From positions 1-48,585 of IMG/VR virus record IMGVR_UViG_3300044684_000035: 48,585 bases of DNA, one strand, 5' to 3'. Source of the stretch: a virus. A model generated the notes under the pieces. That model was not told the origin of the DNA. It searched no databases and saw only the letters and a program-made list of their open reading frames with translations. Both the position numbers and the translations under genes were made by a program. This document shows, in pieces, positions 1 through 48,585 of this stretch. How positions within the stretch are numbered: the first letter of the stretch is position 1; each line of letters begins with the position of its first letter.

Positions 1-127
1 ACGACTCTGGGAAGAAAGAATATAAAGGATGAGGTTGTTCTTTGTTAGGCAATTTTGCCAAGGAGTACATCGCTATGACTCCACTCTATACTACGATCTA
101 GATTAGGGGAGTAGTAATCGAGGATTC
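1..127. repeat. Left copy of 127-bp terminal direct repeat
   Basis: The first 127 bases are identical to bases 48459-48585. An exact, odd-length overlap of 127 is what a de Bruijn assembler leaves when it closes a circle with k=127, so I read this as an assembly overlap of a circular or circularly permuted genome. A genuine short terminal repeat as in T7-like phages cannot be excluded. The repeat lies inside the non-coding structured region, not at a gene boundary. Confidence 0.9.
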
Positions 128-306
128 TCGATCAAACGCTCCCCGTTAGTTTGTAAAGCACGACCTGTGTTACGCAGGAGACGACTGTATAGTCAGGCTC
201 CGCTCGGTTGTGGACCGGGCTGTAACACTGTCACCAGACACTAGAGCTGTATAGCCTAGGAGGGAGTTGTGACCCTCAACTGTGGCTCCCCTTCCAAAAG
301 GTCGAG

Positions 307-352
307 CCTACCCCATGTCATAGGTGTGATCGTATCAGATATGACATGTAGG
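307..352 (+). ncRNA. Long hairpin within the structured region
   Basis: CCTAC (307-311) pairs with GTAGG (348-352), and after a short bulge ATGTCATA (315-322) pairs with TATGACAT (340-347). An inner TGAT/ATCA stem (327-330/334-337) closes a three-base loop. About 13 outer pairs plus 4 inner ones make this the longest hairpin of the region. An alternative short hairpin (351-356/365-370) competes for its outermost bases. Confidence 0.6.
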
Positions 353-1035
353 TGGAGAGGAATGTCCACCAAGCCATCAGTCAACGTGGCACTTGTTGAC
401 CTTCTGGCCGATAAGGAACTCGGCAAGCTGTCTAGCGTTTGTGGAACGTAACCACTCCGAACGGTGGAGGACACTCCTGATTCGGGAGGCCGTTTGACTC
501 GGCGAATAAACAGACCGCATAGGAAGTACAGCGAAACCCAGACGTGGTTCTGGAACGAGATAAAGGATGCCTCCTCACGCGGGTATAGCCCGGTGACAGT
601 AATCGAAACGGATGTAATCTAGGATGGCCGAATAATCAGTACACTTCTGTACAGGGAGTTCGAGTCTCTCAAGCCTTAGGGCTCAGGGTGCTATGTACAC
701 GTAGAGGTGACTGCTGGATGTCAGGCAAGTAGGGTGCAACCTACTCATGGTGGGTCGATACCACCTCCGAAGAAGCAATCCCAGCAGATGAAAGTACGAG
801 CAAGTCCTTAAACCGGGTACTAGGAATGTACTCAAGATCAACCCTAGCTCCTTAAGCGTAAGATTGGCGGAGGAACCTCTGACATTCTTCCTCATAAAGT
901 TAGGATGTCCTGACCCAATCCTAGGCACTGATACCTTAGCTGTATTAGCGAGGTGTCTGGATGGACAGCAGGTGGGTAGAAACCGTGGTGTCTTCTAGCA
1001 AGCCCATCAGGACTACAGCCTGTATTACCTTACGA

Positions 1036-1065
1036 ACCTGTGAGCCAAACAGGTGGTGAACCTGT
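1036..1065 (+). ncRNA. Three-part alternating hairpin (switch-like)
   Basis: ACCTGT at 1036-1041, ACAGGT at 1049-1054 and ACCTGT at 1060-1065 let the middle segment pair perfectly with either neighbour. One hairpin has a 7-base loop, the other a 5-base loop, both with 6-bp stems; the two are mutually exclusive. The pairing is seen directly; a switching role is inference. Confidence 0.45.
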
Positions 1066-1607
1066 CCCTTAGGGTAAAGGCAAATCGATCGTAAGAAGCA
1101 ATCTACCGTTCCTCTTCCGTACACCGGGAGTCTCAAAGGATCACTAGATTGATTTCACACTCGGCTGTCTACCGAGCAGTGGACGAACGGCATCGTAAAC
1201 GTCGAAAACTAAAGCCGACAACTTAAAGTAGGTTAGGGAGATGTCCCACACGAAGGTGTAGTAAGCCTAACTTTTCACATCTGTTGAACTGGTCCTTACA
1301 TGACCACCGACGCGCAGGACATAGCGAGAGATAGTTGGTACTCACGTCACCCCCTGCCAGTCTGAACTGTGAAGTTGGCAGACCGAAATGAGTCCGAGAC
1401 TGAGAAAGGGATACACCCACAGTCGAAGTCGTAAACGAAATGTAACAGTTACTTAGTAGGCACCGGATCGGGTGTCGAAGTTGTAACTACATCAGCCAGA
1501 AGTTTATCTTCAGAAGCACGGAGGCAACATGAAGCAGAACAGGCACCCTCTTATCGTCCGTATCATCAACTTATTGATGAACCGGAGTATGCCACCTTAA
1601 TCAATTA

Positions 1608-1651
1608 GGGGCAGAGATAAGGGGTAGTACTTAAACAGTCTACCCCGCCCC
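1608..1651 (+). ncRNA. 12-bp interrupted hairpin at the 3' edge of the structured region
   Basis: GGGGC (1608-1612) pairs with GCCCC (1647-1651) and GGGGTAG (1621-1627) pairs with CTACCCC (1640-1646), with an 8-base bulge on the 5' side. No T-tract follows, so it is not a classical terminator. It lies 20 bp before the first gene of this arm and may mark the processed 3' end of the RNA or control translation of that gene. Confidence 0.5.
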
Positions 1652-1670
1652 AGAATATATGGAGACAACC

Positions 1671-1982
1671 ATGTACCAGAATTACCCCTTCTACGGATAC
1701 GGCCCTCCGATGATTGTTCCGGGTCAGCCTAACCAGCAACCTCTTACCCGTGAGGAATTCGAACGTGGTATGCGTTTCATCGAGAAGATGCGTGCTCGTG
1801 AAGCAAGAGATAAAGAACGCACTGAACGAAATAAACGGAAAGTGAAGCAGGACGAAGCTGACAGAGCTAGTGCAGCTTGGAAGCGCACCTTCAGCAGCCT
1901 TGAGTTGTATATCCTCGGCATCCTGTCGTATCCTTTCTGGGCACCGATCTACAAAATGTTTATGGCACATGTGGTGCAGTAA
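1671..1982 (+). CDS. Small membrane-anchored protein, unassigned
   Basis: I do not recognise this 103-residue protein. I take the ATG at 1671 because GGAG lies just upstream at 1661; an in-frame ATG at 1659 has no such site. The N-terminus is rich in Tyr, Pro and Gln. A highly charged, probably coiled-coil stretch (about residues 25-65, many Arg/Lys/Glu) follows, then a hydrophobic segment near the C-terminus (about 75-98) that could span the membrane. It is the first gene after the structured region and its stop overlaps the next start (TAATG), so it is probably translated together with the following genes. Function unknown. Confidence 0.7.
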   Translation: MYQNYPFYGYGPPMIVPGQPNQQPLTREEFERGMRFIEKMRAREARDKERTERNKRKVKQDEADRASAAWKRTFSSLELYILGILSYPFWAPIYKMFMAHVVQ

Positions 1983-3765: not shown

Positions 3766-4116
3766 GTGAATAAAAAAGAAAAAGCCTCTGTTTACCGACT
3801 AAAAACTAGGTATGGAATTACTCCCGAGCAGTATCAAATCTTGTTTGAAAAACAAGAAGGCAAATGTGCAGTTTGCAAACGACATCAGTCTGATTTAAAG
3901 TCTAAGTTGGTTATAGACCACGATCATAAAACTTCTGAAATACGTTCTCTTTTATGTGCTTACTGTAATCTTAGAGTAGTCGGTAAATTAAGAAAAGATA
4001 CTATACAAGCCGTATATGATTATCTGATGTCAGATTATTCAGGTTGGTTTGTTCCTAAAAGAAAAAGAAAGAATGTTAAGAGACGTAAACGAACCGTACT
4101 GGACAGAGGAGGATAG
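3766..4116 (+). CDS. Endonuclease VII-like HNH nuclease (start uncertain)
   Basis: From the GTG at 3766 this is a 116-residue protein of the recombination endonuclease VII type. It has a zinc site from Cys34, Cys37, Cys64 and Cys67 and the catalytic DHDH block (51-54) before the second Cys pair, then a short helix and a very basic tail. It could be a Holliday-junction resolvase or a homing-type mobile nuclease. The frame stays open upstream to a TAG at 3652 and codes for a basic stretch that looks like the N-terminus of the paralogue at 8951-9286, but no ATG, GTG or TTG occurs there. The true start is therefore unclear, and the gene may be 5' truncated. Confidence 0.75.
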   Translation: MNKKEKASVYRLKTRYGITPEQYQILFEKQEGKCAVCKRHQSDLKSKLVIDHDHKTSEIRSLLCAYCNLRVVGKLRKDTIQAVYDYLMSDYSGWFVPKRKRKNVKRRKRTVLDRGG

Positions 4117-5864: not shown

Positions 5865-5899
5865 AAGGCCCCTCGGATTTCTCCTTGGGGCCTTTTTTT
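5865..5899 (+). terminator. Rho-independent terminator at the convergence of the two arms
   Basis: AAGGCCCC (5865-5872) and GGGGCCTT (5887-5894) form an 8-bp stem with a 14-base loop, followed by seven T's. It ends the plus-strand arm. Read on the minus strand the same stem is followed by a weaker T-rich stretch, so it may also stop the late operon whose last gene ends at 5936. Confidence 0.92.
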
Positions 5900-17950: not shown

Positions 17951-18849
17951 GATCTATCCCATCCTCTTAGTTTAAAATATTGAGGTTGTCCCCAACCTCC
18001 TCTGCCCCAACGTCCGTAGTTAGGAATGGCATCGAAGTAAGTAGGTTTGTTGACAACTGATTTGTTTTTCTGAACTTCAGACCAACCACGTTTTACTTCA
18101 CGGTCAGCGAGTTGATGTGGTTGTTGTTTGAGTTCGAAGAATGCAGCAAGCTTAGACTCGTTGAAAAGAAGAGGGAATTGCTCGTCATTCAGAGGTGGAA
18201 TGAAGCTATCCTGCATCAAGAACTGAGCAGTCTTGCGCCCCCAAGCCATTGTTTTAGTGGTCTGTAGGGTGGTGTCTACGGTGCTGTCATATGCATCGAA
18301 GACGACATATTTGTTATTAAGAATTGTACAATACTGAGGTGTCCGGTCTGTCTTGTAGTAGAAGGTATAGTTTTGACCTGTGACACCTTGGTTGTAATTA
18401 AAGCTTTTTACATTAGTTTCTTGAGGATTGAAATCCGTAACCATGTTAATGAAATCAAGATTACTGAGGATTTCTACGTCAAGGTATCCCGGAGGGATCA
18501 GACTTGGTACAGAATTACCAGATGAAGTAATATCTACATTAAGACTGTGGACAAAACCGTTAGAAGTACTTGTACCTACAGTGTCACTATCGAAATACTT
18601 AAGCCATTCGATGTGTTCGACGTCATCTGGGACGTACATCAAGACAGGTTTAGTAGGATCGGTTGAAGACTGTAATTGGACCAATCCTTCGAGATCACTA
18701 AGAGGAACTCTTGCGATAAGATCGAAGAATTTCTGCTTAATGATGTTAGCGACTTGTAGACTTTCTACAGTATCACCAATGGAATTGACTTCATCTGAAG
18801 ACATCGAACTAAGGATGTCTTGAGTCATTGAGAGAAGAGTTTGTCTCAT
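17947..18849 (-). CDS. Tail tubular protein A (gp11-like adaptor)
   Basis: The 300-residue protein begins with a helical region (ILSSMSSDEVNSIGDTVES, then IIKQKFFDLIARV) that matches the N-terminal helices of gp11-type head-to-tail adaptors. A beta-rich middle and a Gly/Trp/Arg-rich end follow. It would form the ring between portal and nozzle. It is immediately downstream of the lysis genes on the same transcript. Confidence 0.8.
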   Translation of the reverse strand: MRQTLLSMTQDILSSMSSDEVNSIGDTVESLQVANIIKQKFFDLIARVPLSDLEGLVQLQSSTDPTKPVLMYVPDDVEHIEWLKYFDSDTVGTSTSNGFVHSLNVDITSSGNSVPSLIPPGYLDVEILSNLDFINMVTDFNPQETNVKSFNYNQGVTGQNYTFYYKTDRTPQYCTILNNKYVVFDAYDSTVDTTLQTTKTMAWGRKTAQFLMQDSFIPPLNDEQFPLLFNESKLAAFFELKQQPHQLADREVKRGWSEVQKNKSVVNKPTYFDAIPNYGRWGRGGWGQPQYFKLRGWDRS

Positions 18850-33867: not shown

Positions 33868-34094
33868 CAATACCTAAAACTAAAATTCCTATTATCTTTT
33901 GGAGACCGAACAAGCGCTATGGGTTGCATAAAATGTGCAACACAAACGCTAGTTTGCTTGATGGGAATTACCTCAAAGGTAACAAGCCTCCTAACTATCC
34001 CGTTCCTGCAATCAATCGTTGTGCGTGGTGCGATAGCACCTCGCATACTGCATTTGGTCCGGGTGAATATTGCCCGGATCGAAAACAAACCTGA
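33864..34094 (+). CDS. Small Cys/His-containing protein
   Basis: The 76-residue product has a basic N-terminus and near the end CAWCDSTSHTAF...YC, a possible zinc site. Its stop codon lies in the second ACCTGATAGGTC copy. No family is recognised. Confidence 0.6.
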   Translation: MTIPKTKIPIIFWRPNKRYGLHKMCNTNASLLDGNYLKGNKPPNYPVPAINRCAWCDSTSHTAFGPGEYCPDRKQT

Positions 34095-34100
34095 TAGGTC
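34089..34100 (+). promoter_or_regulatory. Palindromic motif ACCTGATAGGTC, copy 2
   Basis: This copy overlaps the stop of the previous gene and lies 46 bp before the ATG of the 435-aa gene. It matches copies 1 and 3 exactly over 12 bases. Confidence 0.55.
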
Positions 34101-34146
34101 GCGCGGGACTAACACGGAGACTAGGGCACAACCACGGAGAAAGACT

Positions 34147-35454
34147 ATGCGTTCCAATATCATGTCTTCCGCTTCCATCGCCACTATCGTTGCTCTCGCA
34201 AAGAACAACGATGAAGGCACGGAACCTCAATTCGAAAATGACGTCGAAGGTATCCGCGACTTTTTCGAAAGCGAGGAAGGCCGGAACCGTACACTCAAGT
34301 TGAGTGATACGGTTTTGGATATGGTCGTTTCCAATTGTAAGAATTGGGACGACATGGAAGTAGAGGACAAGCTCAAGCTTTTGGAGCAAGCGGAAAGCGA
34401 AGCTTCCAAGGTTGGAATTGCCGACCCTGCAATCTCTGAGCTGGCAACCATCTTCAATGAAGATGACATGGCCAATGAAGAATTGCAGGCATGTCTCGAA
34501 GCCGTCAAAAAGTCCAAGACAACGGCAGTAGACATGTATGCCCAATTCCATCGTCTTTATACGTTGGAACAACTCAACTCTTTCCCCCGTCCGGGTTGGA
34601 CGGAGAAGGACGCAGAAGGAACCAACTATAAACCCGATATCGTGGAGACAAAGGATAAGGCGTCCGGCAATCCCGTAACAACGGTTTGGATGGATGATTT
34701 TATCTTCAGTCTCGCGAGGGGCAAAGACCTTTGGACAAAGCTTGACGAAGTAAAGAAAGAACTCAAGACTTCGGGTTCCGTTCCTCGCCTCGCCAAGCGT
34801 TCCAAGAAAGAACTCGAAGCAATGAAAAGCGAATTGAGTTCGCAATTCAATGCTTTGACCAACATGGTGAAAAAGGCAATCGACGTTCATCATTCCTTTG
34901 AAGCCGTGCAAAACCTTCCTCTTGTCCAAATCGAATGGATCACGGTTCCTGAAGATCAAGGAATTGCAATCCCTTCTCAGTTTGGAACCGGCAAGGTTGG
35001 CAAAGATGCAGTCTTTGTCAGCCGGGCACCTAAGCCGCTTTGGATTTACCCGAAAGGTAAGCCAAGCGACGGGAAAAACCTTTCGGTTGGTCAACTGATT
35101 GGTTTCAAAATCCCTGAAGCTATCGCCAACGGAGGAACGATGGCCGATCTTCTCAAGACACTTGAGAGAGGATCGGGCGACGGCAACGAAGGCGATGGGG
35201 ACGGTGCCGATTGGAGTGAGGAGGAGGCTTACGAAGGTCTTTCCAAAGTCGCTAACTTCTTCAGCAAGCGGGACAACATCGCAATGCTGAATAAGATTTT
35301 GGCGGACAAGAAACACGAAGACCGCAATGATTGGCTTGAGAATGTCGGAGAGATTTATTTCCGTATCAAGTCAGTCTACAATAAGTATCGGTCGGAGATT
35401 GAGGAAATCACCGGCGGAGATAGTGAAGCGAACGGCAAGCAAGCCGCAGCGTAA
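34147..35454 (+). CDS. Unassigned 435-residue protein
   Basis: I do not recognise this protein. From the ATG at 34147 (GGAG eight bases upstream) it reads as a hydrophilic, Lys/Glu-rich helical protein with a mixed middle (about 270-340: PLVQIEWITVPEDQG, PKPLWIYPKGK) and an acidic low-complexity stretch (GSGDGNEGDGDGADWSEEE, about 350-370) followed by helices and an Ala-rich end. No signal peptide or membrane segment. It stands alone between a motif copy and a strong terminator, so it is probably an independent and abundant transcript. Confidence 0.8.
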   Translation: MRSNIMSSASIATIVALAKNNDEGTEPQFENDVEGIRDFFESEEGRNRTLKLSDTVLDMVVSNCKNWDDMEVEDKLKLLEQAESEASKVGIADPAISELATIFNEDDMANEELQACLEAVKKSKTTAVDMYAQFHRLYTLEQLNSFPRPGWTEKDAEGTNYKPDIVETKDKASGNPVTTVWMDDFIFSLARGKDLWTKLDEVKKELKTSGSVPRLAKRSKKELEAMKSELSSQFNALTNMVKKAIDVHHSFEAVQNLPLVQIEWITVPEDQGIAIPSQFGTGKVGKDAVFVSRAPKPLWIYPKGKPSDGKNLSVGQLIGFKIPEAIANGGTMADLLKTLERGSGDGNEGDGDGADWSEEEAYEGLSKVANFFSKRDNIAMLNKILADKKHEDRNDWLENVGEIYFRIKSVYNKYRSEIEEITGGDSEANGKQAAA

Positions 35455-39778: not shown

Positions 39779-39839
39779 CATGACGACTAAATTCCGCACG
39801 ATTCAATCATACAGCTCTCGTAAACGGAGAAGGCTACCA

Positions 39840-41381
39840 ATGACGACTTCACCAATCATCGTTCGTCGCAATGGCAACCAATACATCGCGAACGATTACC
39901 TTGAACTTGTCCTTCAGACACATTCAGCAGCTTGGTCTGCTGCTCTCGTGTCGACAGACGGGGAGAAGAAGGAACTCATGATCGCCAAAGGTGACGGCGA
40001 TGGATTGAACCTTCAGCTCATTCAGGATACAATGAAGGCGTATCCTGCCGATGATATCACGTTCTGCTTCTACGCCTCCGATAAGGCGTTGAACATGGAC
40101 GATATCAACCCATTTCCGCTGTTGAAGAGCGGAGATGATGTCCAAGTAGTTGCTTTCGTATCCGGTGAATTTCCCGGGTTCGAGAAGCCGACGTCGTCGA
40201 AGTCGAGTGAATTCTTTTTCGCTCACGAATATCTCAAGCCGAAGCTCGAAGGAGTTTCCGAACTCGTCGACGGCGATCTTGAGAAGATTGTTTCTTTCAT
40301 TTCCAAACCGTCATTCAAGAGTGACGCCCTCAACAACGCCCCGTCGCATGGTGTCATCACACTGATGTGTGTCGACAACACGACGATCTCCTTTGCGAAG
40401 GCGGATGACTCCGCTGAATATCCGTGGGGTTGGACTTCCAGCAATCTCGGTTACGCCAAGGCGAAGCCTCAGGCGAAGAAGGAGGGCGAAGACAAACCCA
40501 AGAAGGGTATGTTTTCCGGGAAGTCCACGGTTCGTGAAAAGGTTGGTAGCAACGGACAAGCCCAGCCAAGTGCTCCCGAACCCCAGCCTGAAAAGTCTGA
40601 TGCTGTCACTGCGACAGCAGAAGGTTTGAAGGCGAATGCCTTGGCGAATTACACCGTCAAAAAAGGTGTGCTCCCGCCGGAGCATTTGAACCGGAAGGAA
40701 CGTGGCAAGTGGTACACCAACCGGATTGGTTACAAGCCGGATAAGTTCGACCAAGGTCGTGGTGTCCCGATCGATCTTTACGTCGATCCGAAGGGTCAGA
40801 TCATGACTCTCGCTGACGTCAAGAAACTCGGTATGGCCGCAGCCAAGCTTCCCGCTCGTTCGCTTCCGCCGCGTACGTCTGGTGACACCGAGACGGAGCA
40901 CATCCAGCACGGCCAGATGGACAACGCACCGCCCGCCGGTGAAGTCCATAAGGCTGAGCTTCTCCCGATCATGTCTCCTAAGTCGAGGCAGAAGCTTGAG
41001 GCATTCATCAAGGATGCCAAGAGCCAGAAGCGTATCGCCGAGAACGCTGCCATCATCGAAGACCCCAGCCATGTTCAGGAGATCGAGAAGAAGTTCGCTT
41101 CTTTGTCGACTCAGATGAAGTACGACGACATGACTGAGTTCTGTAAGTGGAACCTCGAAATGTTCCGCGATCTCACTCATGCCGAAGTCAACGGCAAGCC
41201 GAACGAGATGTACAATCCCGAAGCGGCGATGGTGATGCTGTTTACGTTCCGTAACATGGTGGCTGGCAACTACGCCAAGATCGCCAAGAACGTCGACACC
41301 CAGCAGACGACGCATCAGCTTGCGAAAGAGGAGCTTGCTCCTGCTCCGAAGAAGAAGGGTATGTTCGCCAAAGTCGCTTAA
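39840..41381 (+). CDS. Unassigned 513-residue early protein
   Basis: I do not recognise this protein. I chose the ATG at 39840 because GGAGAAGG precedes it; 39780 is an in-frame alternative adding 20 basic residues. Residues 1-150 look like an alpha/beta domain with an acidic character. A Lys/Pro/Glu-rich linker (about 205-265) contains KPKKGMFSGK, and the very C-terminus repeats this as KKKGMFAKVA. The rest is helical. The repeated short basic peptide at a linker and the end suggests a binding motif, for example for a partner protein. GC-rich codons suggest high expression. Confidence 0.78.
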   Translation: MTTSPIIVRRNGNQYIANDYLELVLQTHSAAWSAALVSTDGEKKELMIAKGDGDGLNLQLIQDTMKAYPADDITFCFYASDKALNMDDINPFPLLKSGDDVQVVAFVSGEFPGFEKPTSSKSSEFFFAHEYLKPKLEGVSELVDGDLEKIVSFISKPSFKSDALNNAPSHGVITLMCVDNTTISFAKADDSAEYPWGWTSSNLGYAKAKPQAKKEGEDKPKKGMFSGKSTVREKVGSNGQAQPSAPEPQPEKSDAVTATAEGLKANALANYTVKKGVLPPEHLNRKERGKWYTNRIGYKPDKFDQGRGVPIDLYVDPKGQIMTLADVKKLGMAAAKLPARSLPPRTSGDTETEHIQHGQMDNAPPAGEVHKAELLPIMSPKSRQKLEAFIKDAKSQKRIAENAAIIEDPSHVQEIEKKFASLSTQMKYDDMTEFCKWNLEMFRDLTHAEVNGKPNEMYNPEAAMVMLFTFRNMVAGNYAKIAKNVDTQQTTHQLAKEELAPAPKKKGMFAKVA

Positions 41382-47379: not shown

Positions 47380-47877
47380 TTGTCAGGTATTAAGACACAA
47401 CTCGTTGACGTGGAAGGTAAGATCAAGTACATCCACGGAGTTAATTTGAATAAATATGGTAAATGGGCTATCACTGTTTACCCCACACCTAAGTCTTTGG
47501 ATATCATTCGTGATCTTCAGGCTGATGGTTTGAAGAACGTAATGAAGAAGGACGACGATGGCTATTACATCACCTTCAGCCGTGAACCAACCAAACTCAT
47601 GCGAGGAAAGGTTGTGGCATTCACAGCTCCTAAGATTGTCGATGCAGACGGAAAACTCATGGATGGCAACAAAGTCGGTTGGACATCCGATGCTATCGTC
47701 CGTCTCGAAGTCTACTCTCACCCTGTCCCCAACACTCAGAAGCGAGCTAAAGCCGCACGCTGGGACTCCCTTAAGGTCACTAACCTAGTTCCTTTCGAGG
47801 TAGATAAGTCGGATTGGAGTGAGGAAGAGAAAGAGAATATCAAAGACCTAGCTCAGAAGGAACCTGAACCGTGGTAA
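47380..47877 (+). CDS. Single-stranded DNA-binding protein (gp2.5-like)
   Basis: The 165-residue protein has the pattern of podovirus SSBs with an OB fold: WAITVYPTPKSLDIIRDL near residue 27, KKDDDGYYITFSR, a middle VDADGKL...GWTSDAIVRLEVY, then RAKAARWDSLKVTNLVPFE, and an acidic C-terminal tail ending EPEPW. The acidic tail with a terminal aromatic residue is the known protein-contact device of gp2.5. It would coat single-stranded DNA and connect polymerase and helicase. The start is a TTG directly after the previous stop. Confidence 0.82.
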   Translation: MSGIKTQLVDVEGKIKYIHGVNLNKYGKWAITVYPTPKSLDIIRDLQADGLKNVMKKDDDGYYITFSREPTKLMRGKVVAFTAPKIVDADGKLMDGNKVGWTSDAIVRLEVYSHPVPNTQKRAKAARWDSLKVTNLVPFEVDKSDWSEEEKENIKDLAQKEPEPW

Positions 47878-48029
47878 AAGCTTTGAATGCTATCGGTGAA
47901 GCAATCACTAACACGATTGCTACTGCTACTATTCTCTTCGGTGGAGTAGCTGCGTATATGTATTACGCAGGTTACATCACAGTGACTAACTTCACTAAGC
48001 ACATCACAGTTATTACTATTACTTACTAG
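47871..48029 (+). CDS. Short membrane protein at the end of the replication block
   Basis: The 52-residue frame starts with a GTG overlapping the SSB stop. A long hydrophobic run rich in Ile, Thr, Ala, Val and Tyr (about 12-50) can make one or two membrane passes. It is the last gene before the large non-coding region. Confidence 0.55.
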   Translation: MVKALNAIGEAITNTIATATILFGGVAAYMYYAGYITVTNFTKHITVITITY

Positions 48030-48230
48030 TCGTGGTGAGAGGTTTGCGGTAGGTGTACACTGCAAGCGTAACGTCGCTTCCCTCGATAGACTAACAGGAC
48101 TCCCGTACCCTGCCACAAAACCGGGACCATTTCTTGGATGTCTGAGACTGGCTAGTACCTAGTTTGGTCGATGTCGTAAGGCACAGATGCTGCTAAAGTA
48201 CGGACGAATTGCCCGTGACGTCCAGCCAAT

Positions 48231-48267
48231 CCTGACGTGTCCTTTACACCCCTTGGCCCACGTCAGG
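48231..48267 (+). ncRNA. 9-bp hairpin just upstream of the tRNA-like element
   Basis: CCTGACGTG (48231-48239) and CACGTCAGG (48259-48267) pair perfectly around a 19-base loop. It ends six bases before the tRNA-like acceptor stem and could be stacked on it. Confidence 0.55.
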
Positions 48268-48272
48268 TCACT

Positions 48273-48342
48273 GGGACGTAGCTCAACAGGTAGAGCAACG
48301 CAATGATAAAGCGGAGAAGTTGGTTCGAGTCCTTCCGTCCCT
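48273..48342 (+). tRNA. tRNA-Ile(GAU)-like element, degenerate
   Basis: The acceptor stem is GGGACG (48273-48278) with CGTCCC (48336-48341). TA follows as positions 8-9, then a perfect D arm GCTC/GAGC (48281-48284/48293-48296) with AACAGGTA loop. The anticodon loop ATGATAA has T33 and GAT as anticodon, but its stem has only three central pairs. The T loop is TTCGAGT (48324-48330), with two T-T mismatches in the T stem (GTTGG/CCTTC). No CCA is encoded, and T-rich sequence follows. It may be a decaying tRNA, or a tRNA mimic belonging to the neighbouring large RNA. Confidence 0.6.
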
Positions 48343-48458
48343 TTTTTATTAGTAGGAGCAGGAATCTACTGGCTTAGAAGAAACAGGTAACTGTAGATAT
48401 CGTCGAACCAGCACACTGCCACCGCCGCAACCCCTACCAGACGTTTAGGAAGACTTAA

Positions 48459-48585
48459 ACGACTCTGGGAAGAAAGAATATAAAGGATGAGGTTGTTCTT
48501 TGTTAGGCAATTTTGCCAAGGAGTACATCGCTATGACTCCACTCTATACTACGATCTAGATTAGGGGAGTAGTAATCGAGGATTC
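48459..48585. repeat. Right copy of 127-bp terminal direct repeat
   Basis: Identical to 1-127. It closes the sequence into a circle of 48,458 bp; annotation should count it only once. Confidence 0.9.

Follow-up and report, generated by a model that had tools for sequence, protein, structure and literature searches.

Large structured RNAs are rare, and GOLLD, ROOL and OLE are still poorly understood. GOLLD is a large, elaborate RNA of phages and prophages, about 800 nt long, and ROOL is a large, ornate phage-encoded RNA that is often found near tRNA islands. Both form nanocages and are located near tRNAs; GOLLD has been recovered in pull-downs with ribosomes, and the 659-nt ROOL env-120 has no identified protein partner (PMC12286853). 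OLE is a bacterial RNA of about 600 nt. The commonest gene directly downstream of ole is oapA, which encodes OapA, a membrane protein that carries OLE RNA to the membrane (PMC12265935). In E. coli, termination is impaired by a Pro-Pro at the C-terminus, with cleavage of the stop codon as a consequence (PMC3834316).

The stretch analyzed here, which we call the window, is the 48,585-nt IMG/VR virus record IMGVR_UViG_3300044684_000035 (positions 1 to 48,585; classed as a virus record). Like GOLLD and ROOL, the RNA that we describe in it is large, elaborate and phage-encoded, but it differs from GOLLD in its length (about 1.1-2.5 kb among members), in its downstream membrane protein and Pro-Pro-stop open reading frame (ORF), and in its presence throughout one phage clade; it has no sequence or structure match to GOLLD, and no Rfam match to ROOL. 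As in the OLE system, a membrane-protein gene lies directly 3' of a large RNA gene; however, this RNA is phage-borne, 2-4 times longer than OLE and without an Rfam match to it, and the protein, D, which we liken to OapA by gene position, has a single transmembrane (TM) helix, whereas OapA has four. The short ORF resembles E. coli YbeL-PP in its C-terminal Pro-Pro before the stop codon, but it belongs to a family of ORFs (11-33 codons) that lie between a giant RNA and a membrane protein, conserve only their last residues and have a putative stall. Finally, the combination of a tRNA-like part with a short reading frame recalls tmRNA, although this ORF has its own Shine-Dalgarno sequence and start codon and the RNA is several times longer; in the window, ARAGORN reports only a tRNA.

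The earlier note on this DNA had suggested a possible new class of RNA, and the Rfam comparison agrees. Using cmscan with Rfam release 15 at the gathering threshold, the window and its relatives matched only the tRNA family, RF00005. At permissive thresholds (E<=10 on window positions 1-1700 and 47850-48585, E<=1 on relatives), no large-RNA family was matched, including GOLLD, ROOL and OLE; these window segments were searched piecewise rather than joined, and the region is contiguous in the relatives. Thus, the RNA is not a recognizable GOLLD, ROOL, OLE, tmRNA, ribozyme or intron. No description of such an RNA was found in the literature searched, outside of which lie many subscription papers and preprints. 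Both the RNA class and the three-part module are new, while the broad kind, the giant ornate RNAs, has precedents.

A gene-poor interval in a T7-like phage and its clade

The window is the genome of a T7-like phage. It encodes a T7-like DNA polymerase, primase/helicase, terminase, head-tail adaptor and tail proteins, as well as an SSB-like protein (weak phrog_112 match), a phosphoesterase and a Cas4-domain exonuclease. Because the two ends share a 127-nt terminal repeat (1-127 = 48459-48585; circular length 48,458 nt), the region is continuous across the junction, as had been proposed, and because the equivalent interval of relatives sits inside a contig, the junction is not an artefact. The region is part of the rightward (replication) operon, with the polymerase and SSB-like genes before it and the exonuclease gene after it. 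Its 5' part (48030-48458, + strand), between gene C, which ends at 48029, and the junction, holds no supported ORF. The main part (1-1520, + strand) coincides with an interval that is syntenic and gene-poor clade-wide, and is matched by held-out covariance models and by collinear + strand profile matches to relatives. When compared with 75+ syntenic intervals of relatives, no ORF from 48030 through the junction to about 1520 had a homologue, and the sole ORF supported starts at 1659/1671 (gene D). The earlier note had described a roughly 2.1-kb region, gene-free from 48030 to about 1651. The absence of genes holds up to about 1520, but the 3' end contains a 23-codon ORF (1529-1600), and the RNA proper is corrected to about 1.95 kb (48030-48458 plus 1 to about 1520).

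Other features of the genome were recorded in passing. A 52-codon ORF for a small hydrophobic protein (47871-48029, + strand) lies between the SSB-like gene and the RNA, and relatives showed no counterpart. The rightward operon also has two ORFs, of 511 and 533 aa (33919-35454 and 39780-41381, + strand), with no Pfam or PHROG match, and no phage RNA polymerase was recognized when the large ORFs of the window were scanned. An ORF with an HNH-endonuclease-like pattern, seen by eye (CAVC..HDHKT..LLC..CN; 3766-4116, + strand), also follows the Cas4-type gene in many relatives. A hairpin with a T run that resembles an intrinsic terminator (5871-5890, + strand) lies near the end of the rightward operon and immediately precedes the structural genes, which have the opposite orientation.

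To survey the interval, we fetched 80 polymerase relatives and added more contigs via the neighboring nuclease gene, all of them drawn from a single virus collection; a script delimited the intervals and chose the gene D starts, and errors of a few codons are possible for some of these. In every sampled clade member the interval from the SSB-like gene to the Cas4-type gene is 1.5-4.8 kb and mostly gene-poor, with the qualification that some intervals hold small genes and that part of the lengths include the SSB-like gene itself, whereas it is only 60-840 nt in the six measurable outgroup relatives (L073, L075-L078, L080). A quick polymerase tree separates the 52 RNA-bearing rows from the rest by a branch with an SH-aLRT support of 100%, and no row on their side is without the region. 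The giant RNA is kept throughout this phage clade, without loss among the 52 rows. Its members are uncultured phages, and our reading of the source samples suggests that they are mostly from soil.

Neither the window nor one of the relatives, L009, showed DNA-level similarity to cultured phages, and relatives of the window polymerase among phage records had less than 60% identity, about 40% at best. Searches for closer relatives via the neighboring genes B and G found none, and when viral contigs were scanned by DNA pattern for two short RNA motifs, the matches were weak or at chance level, apart from those to relatives that were already known. A host assignment based on L241 was dropped: this was one distant match, with a 34%-identical polymerase, on a 49-kb contig in a Candidatus Dependentiae MAG. 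That contig is possibly from a phage and is not evidence for the host of this clade.

Covariation and the structure of the RNA

Hairpin density, which had been offered as evidence of structure, is at chance. In 200-nt windows of the + strand, compared with dinucleotide shuffles, the mean folding z was -1.27 inside the region and -1.33 in the rest of the genome. We therefore rejected single-sequence folding energy as evidence for structure; the region does not exceed the rest of the genome in stability, and a list of hairpins proves nothing by itself. The case for structure comes instead from covariation, the lack of which the earlier note had named beforehand as the outcome that would count against it. 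The non-coding interval of nine relatives (58-90% identical) was aligned, and columns 31-1200 were folded with RNAalifold, which yielded 263 pairs, 126 of them with a compensatory change; 74 of these had no sequence in which the pair was broken. Such clean compensatory pairs averaged 9.5 in 24 column-shuffled alignments (maximum 16), and a coding control, the polymerase gene from eight of the nine phages, had 4, against 4.8 in its own shuffles. Covariation is thus strong in the nine relatives, and together with two held-out covariance models that find the window (see below), it bears out the proposal of a giant ornate phage RNA. We used clean compensatory pairs in place of the RNAalifold energy z-score, with column shuffles rather than R-scape as controls, because the coding control also reaches an energy z of -5 with column shuffles; the z of -3 to -9 seen in two- and three-sequence groups is therefore not decisive alone. 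Clean pairs also exceeded shuffles in the other subgroups, narrowly in g12 (122 versus 100.6, maximum 115), with the exception of the most diverged pair, g10 (100 versus 97.7); tests on two or three sequences are weaker evidence. The folds covered spans of up to 300-500 nt, without pseudoknots.

The region thus combines a long, covariation-supported secondary structure with a lack of conserved long protein-coding sequence, which is what defines a large structured non-coding RNA. Its strand is indicated by two asymmetries. Among pairs predicted on both strands that covary by Watson-Crick changes, G-U cells number 94 and A-C cells 48, and a canonical tRNA T-arm hairpin, defined as a perfect 5-bp stem around TTCRANY, occurs 87 times on the + strand of 75 intervals but once on the - strand (0.85 expected). 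The region is therefore a giant structured RNA read from the + strand. The same asymmetries point to RNA rather than to a DNA-level element, such as a replication origin or a packaging site with structured single-stranded DNA. The region does adjoin the DNA polymerase gene and span the contig ends, the latter saying little since the junction position is set by assembly, and we consider a DNA element very improbable.

The window itself is diverged, with blastn finding only 76 nt of similarity, in L006. Profile matches to the group formed by L006, L016, L070 and L071 are nonetheless collinear and on the + strand, and the conserved domains hold one order across subgroups. At 196-218 (+ strand) the window has the hairpin GCTCGGT[TGTGG]ACCGGGC, and the same hairpin, with a changed stem, occurs in all four members of that group. 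A two-hairpin domain follows at 280-353 (+ strand), composed of GGCTC..[TTCCAAA]..GAGCC and CATGTCATA[GGTGTGATCGTATCAGA]TATGACATG. A model of this domain (R1) built from the same group, with the window left out, finds window positions 280-353 with 56.9 bits (E=9.5e-13); an R1 match at 17958-18009 was taken as chance (E=0.11). The 17-nt loop GGTGTGATCGTATCAGR is kept between members, while its 9-bp stem is replaced, being CATGTCATA/TATGACATG in the window, CAACGTACA/TGTACGTTG in L016 and TATGTTGCA/TGCAACATA in L004. Across eight sequences of the domain, 98.5% of cells are paired and 13 of 17 pairs are changed on both sides, a result seen in 0 of 500 shuffles; the covariation score is 0.84, versus 0.23 when shuffled and <=0.11 when slid.

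A core motif at 843-937 (+ strand) has the form CTTAAGCGTAAG-stem-..CTGA..-stem-CCtAGGCACTG, with the stem GATTGG/CCAATC. The corresponding model (R2), made from six other members of several subgroups with the window left out, finds window positions 843-937 with 36.8 bits (E=6e-5 over 1.27 Mb), and it also finds L091 and L020; the covariation score is 0.93, versus 0.28 when shuffled. The covariation counts (A4 and A6) were taken from alignments fitted to the models, and the model-building alignments show the same picture. The stretch that blastn matches to L006 (77.6% over 76 nt) is a conserved element at 1234-1306 (+ strand) with the hairpins GGGA[GATG]TCCC and ACAC[GAAG]GTGT, whose stems covary in L004, L006 and L016. 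In the window's RNA, direct support is limited to the two model domains, this element and one T-arm; the aligned support covers a small part of its 1.95 kb, and we infer the remainder from synteny and relatives.

The window's own T-arm is GGGAG[TTCGAGT]CTCTC (654-670, + strand). A perfect T-arm occurs in 54 of the 75 intervals, and all 87 + strand T-arms have the G53-C61 closing pair, which the pattern does not demand. In addition, the window contains the tRNA-like element that had been noticed earlier (48272-48343, + strand), followed by T6. ARAGORN reads it as tRNA-Ile (gat), and it scores 46 bits as a tRNA, yet its anticodon and T stems are mismatched, so that it lacks the intact cloverleaf of a functional tRNA and is better named tRNA-like. 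L019, L046, L061, L074, L115 and L132 also carry a tRNA-like D-arm motif, close to where the interval starts. In L046, L061 and L132, tRNA-like elements near the interval start have a paired acceptor (e.g., GAGGAC/GTCCTC in L061) and a D-arm, with an enlarged, unusual middle; such elements might mark the 5' end of the giant RNA for processing.

Two other readings of the region bear on these elements. If the region consisted of several separate smaller RNAs, including a tRNA, that lie side by side and are processed apart, the tRNA-like element and T6 at 48343 could end the first transcript, and the wide variation in length between members would fit. We regard this as quite unlikely, because the domains keep one order across subgroups and long-range closing helices are predicted in the nine-sequence alignment. 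Alternatively, the T-arms, the tRNA-like element and a programmed stall could serve to capture ribosomes, EF-Tu, RNase P or tRNA-modifying enzymes, for example in holding stalled ribosomes on the RNA particle or in redirecting translation during infection. The 87 T-arms with their uniform closing pair, and the tRNA-like elements in several members, speak for such engagement with translation. On the other hand, 21 of the 75 loci have no perfect T-arm by the strict rule, and since unrelated RNAs commonly use T-loops as tertiary-structure modules, the T-arms need not bind the partners of tRNA.

A Pro-Pro-stop micro-ORF and gene D

The 3' end of the region carries two features that were absent from the first reading and are added here. 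The first is the 23-codon micro-ORF at 1529-1600 (+ strand), which encodes MKQNRHPLIVRIINLLMNRSMPP* and is preceded by a strong GGAGG Shine-Dalgarno sequence at about 1520-1524. An ORF of 11-33 codons that has a Shine-Dalgarno sequence and ends in Pro-Pro-stop lies just 3' of the RNA in 65 of 68 loci, compared with 1.5 expected after shuffling, 1 of 68 control windows and 0 of 8 outgroups. The residue preceding Pro-Pro is Arg or Gln in 54 of the 65 micro-ORFs, and the stop codon is UAA in 64; the rest of the peptide is hypervariable. Because the first Pro is encoded by all four codons (24/19/11/11), selection acts on the amino acids and not on a nucleotide motif. For the same reason, a candidate role of the motif CCTCCTTAA as a mimic of the 16S rRNA 3' tail was rejected: the motif is the Pro-Pro-stop codons of the micro-ORF, and its synonymous third positions vary. 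A short ORF that follows a Shine-Dalgarno sequence, is conserved in its last residues alone and precedes a gene (D) has the sequence features of arrest and leader peptides, and the micro-ORF is likely a ribosome-arrest peptide.

The second feature is gene D (1671-1982, + strand; also open from 1659), which encodes a protein of about 103 aa with a charged middle and a single C-terminal TM helix. By a strict rule, a counterpart is found directly 3' of the RNA in 65 of 69 RNA-bearing intervals and in 0 of 8 outgroups; L070, L071 and L092 have a D-like protein just below that rule. The gene usually lies some 30-120 nt beyond the micro-ORF. The counterparts have 85-120 aa, or 71 aa in L004; their N-terminal part is charged and often rich in Pro and Tyr, and one TM helix lies at the C-terminus. 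The sequence of D is highly variable, and searches of Pfam and PHROG gave no match above the cut-off. In the window, the micro-ORF and gene D are separated by a G/C-rich hairpin (GGGGC..GGGGTAG/CTACCCC..GCCCC; 1609-1652, + strand), and similar G/C-rich hairpins are found there in many relatives.

The RNA, the Pro-Pro-stop ORF and gene D occur together or not at all. The outgroups are without all three; since these are distant and few (8), the joint absence may reflect a single evolutionary event. The anatomy of the locus, a giant RNA, then an [Arg/Gln]-Pro-Pro-stop micro-ORF, then the small single-TM protein D, is almost certainly as described. This strict co-occurrence argues that D and the micro-ORF belong with the RNA, contrary to the idea of an RNA-only assembly of the GOLLD or ROOL type, a homo-oligomeric cage or scaffold to which D and the micro-ORF would be mere neighbors. 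Size, phage location and the tRNA-like element do recall GOLLD and ROOL, but the lack of Rfam similarity adds to our view that this idea is improbable.

The downstream arrangement also suggests that the whole region could be a giant cis-acting leader, a 5' untranslated regulator of gene D in which the Pro-Pro-stop ORF acts as an arrest peptide and no function is exerted in trans. D is always next, and the window has no reported terminator-like site from the RNA to gene D, the RNA running straight into the micro-ORF, the hairpin and the ribosome-binding site of D. At 1-2.5 kb, however, such a regulator would be of extreme length, and it would not need the T-arm arrays, the tRNA-like elements or the many covarying domains that lie far upstream, as the micro-ORF and hairpin would suffice for that purpose. 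We think such a leader unlikely, if still worth serious consideration. The Pro-Pro-stop ORF likewise lends weight to the translation-engaging RNA described above, as does the recovery of GOLLD with ribosomes (PMC12286853), and that reading, too, we judge to be unlikely. Together with the leader, it is the main competitor of the mechanism that we propose next.

A proposed membrane-anchored particle

The reading that we prefer, tentatively and at somewhat less than even confidence, is that of a membrane-anchored RNP in which D is the anchor and a stall on the micro-ORF controls D and possibly the 3' end of the RNA. This proposal draws on analogy with OapA and OLE and with Pro-Pro-stop cleavage in E. 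coli. The RNA would be made as part of the rightward replication operon and would fold into a large particle. Ribosomes translating the micro-ORF would stall at Pro-Pro-stop, with one or both of two effects: the stall may expose or close the D ribosome-binding site across the intervening hairpin, and cleavage of the A-site stop codon in the stalled ribosome may create an RNA 3' end near 1600. D, with its charged N-terminal part facing the cytoplasm, would then bind the RNA and anchor it to the membrane, as OapA does OLE. The fuller picture is a clade-universal giant (1-2.5 kb) RNA machine with canonical T-arms, in which the stall sets the 3' end or the expression of the partner and which acts as a possibly ribosome-associated viral RNP, tethered to the host membrane by a dedicated single-TM protein; as a whole, it is possible but rather doubtful.

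The RNA adds a class that has no relatives in Rfam, is two- to fourfold longer than its precedents and has not been lost in a deep phage clade. Its two co-conserved partners, a likely ribosome-arrest peptide and a membrane protein, are direct handles on function, and with so many diverged natural variants, the secondary structure and the link between RNA and protein can both be tested directly. The finding raises the question of why a 50-kb phage devotes up to 5% of its genome to one RNA.
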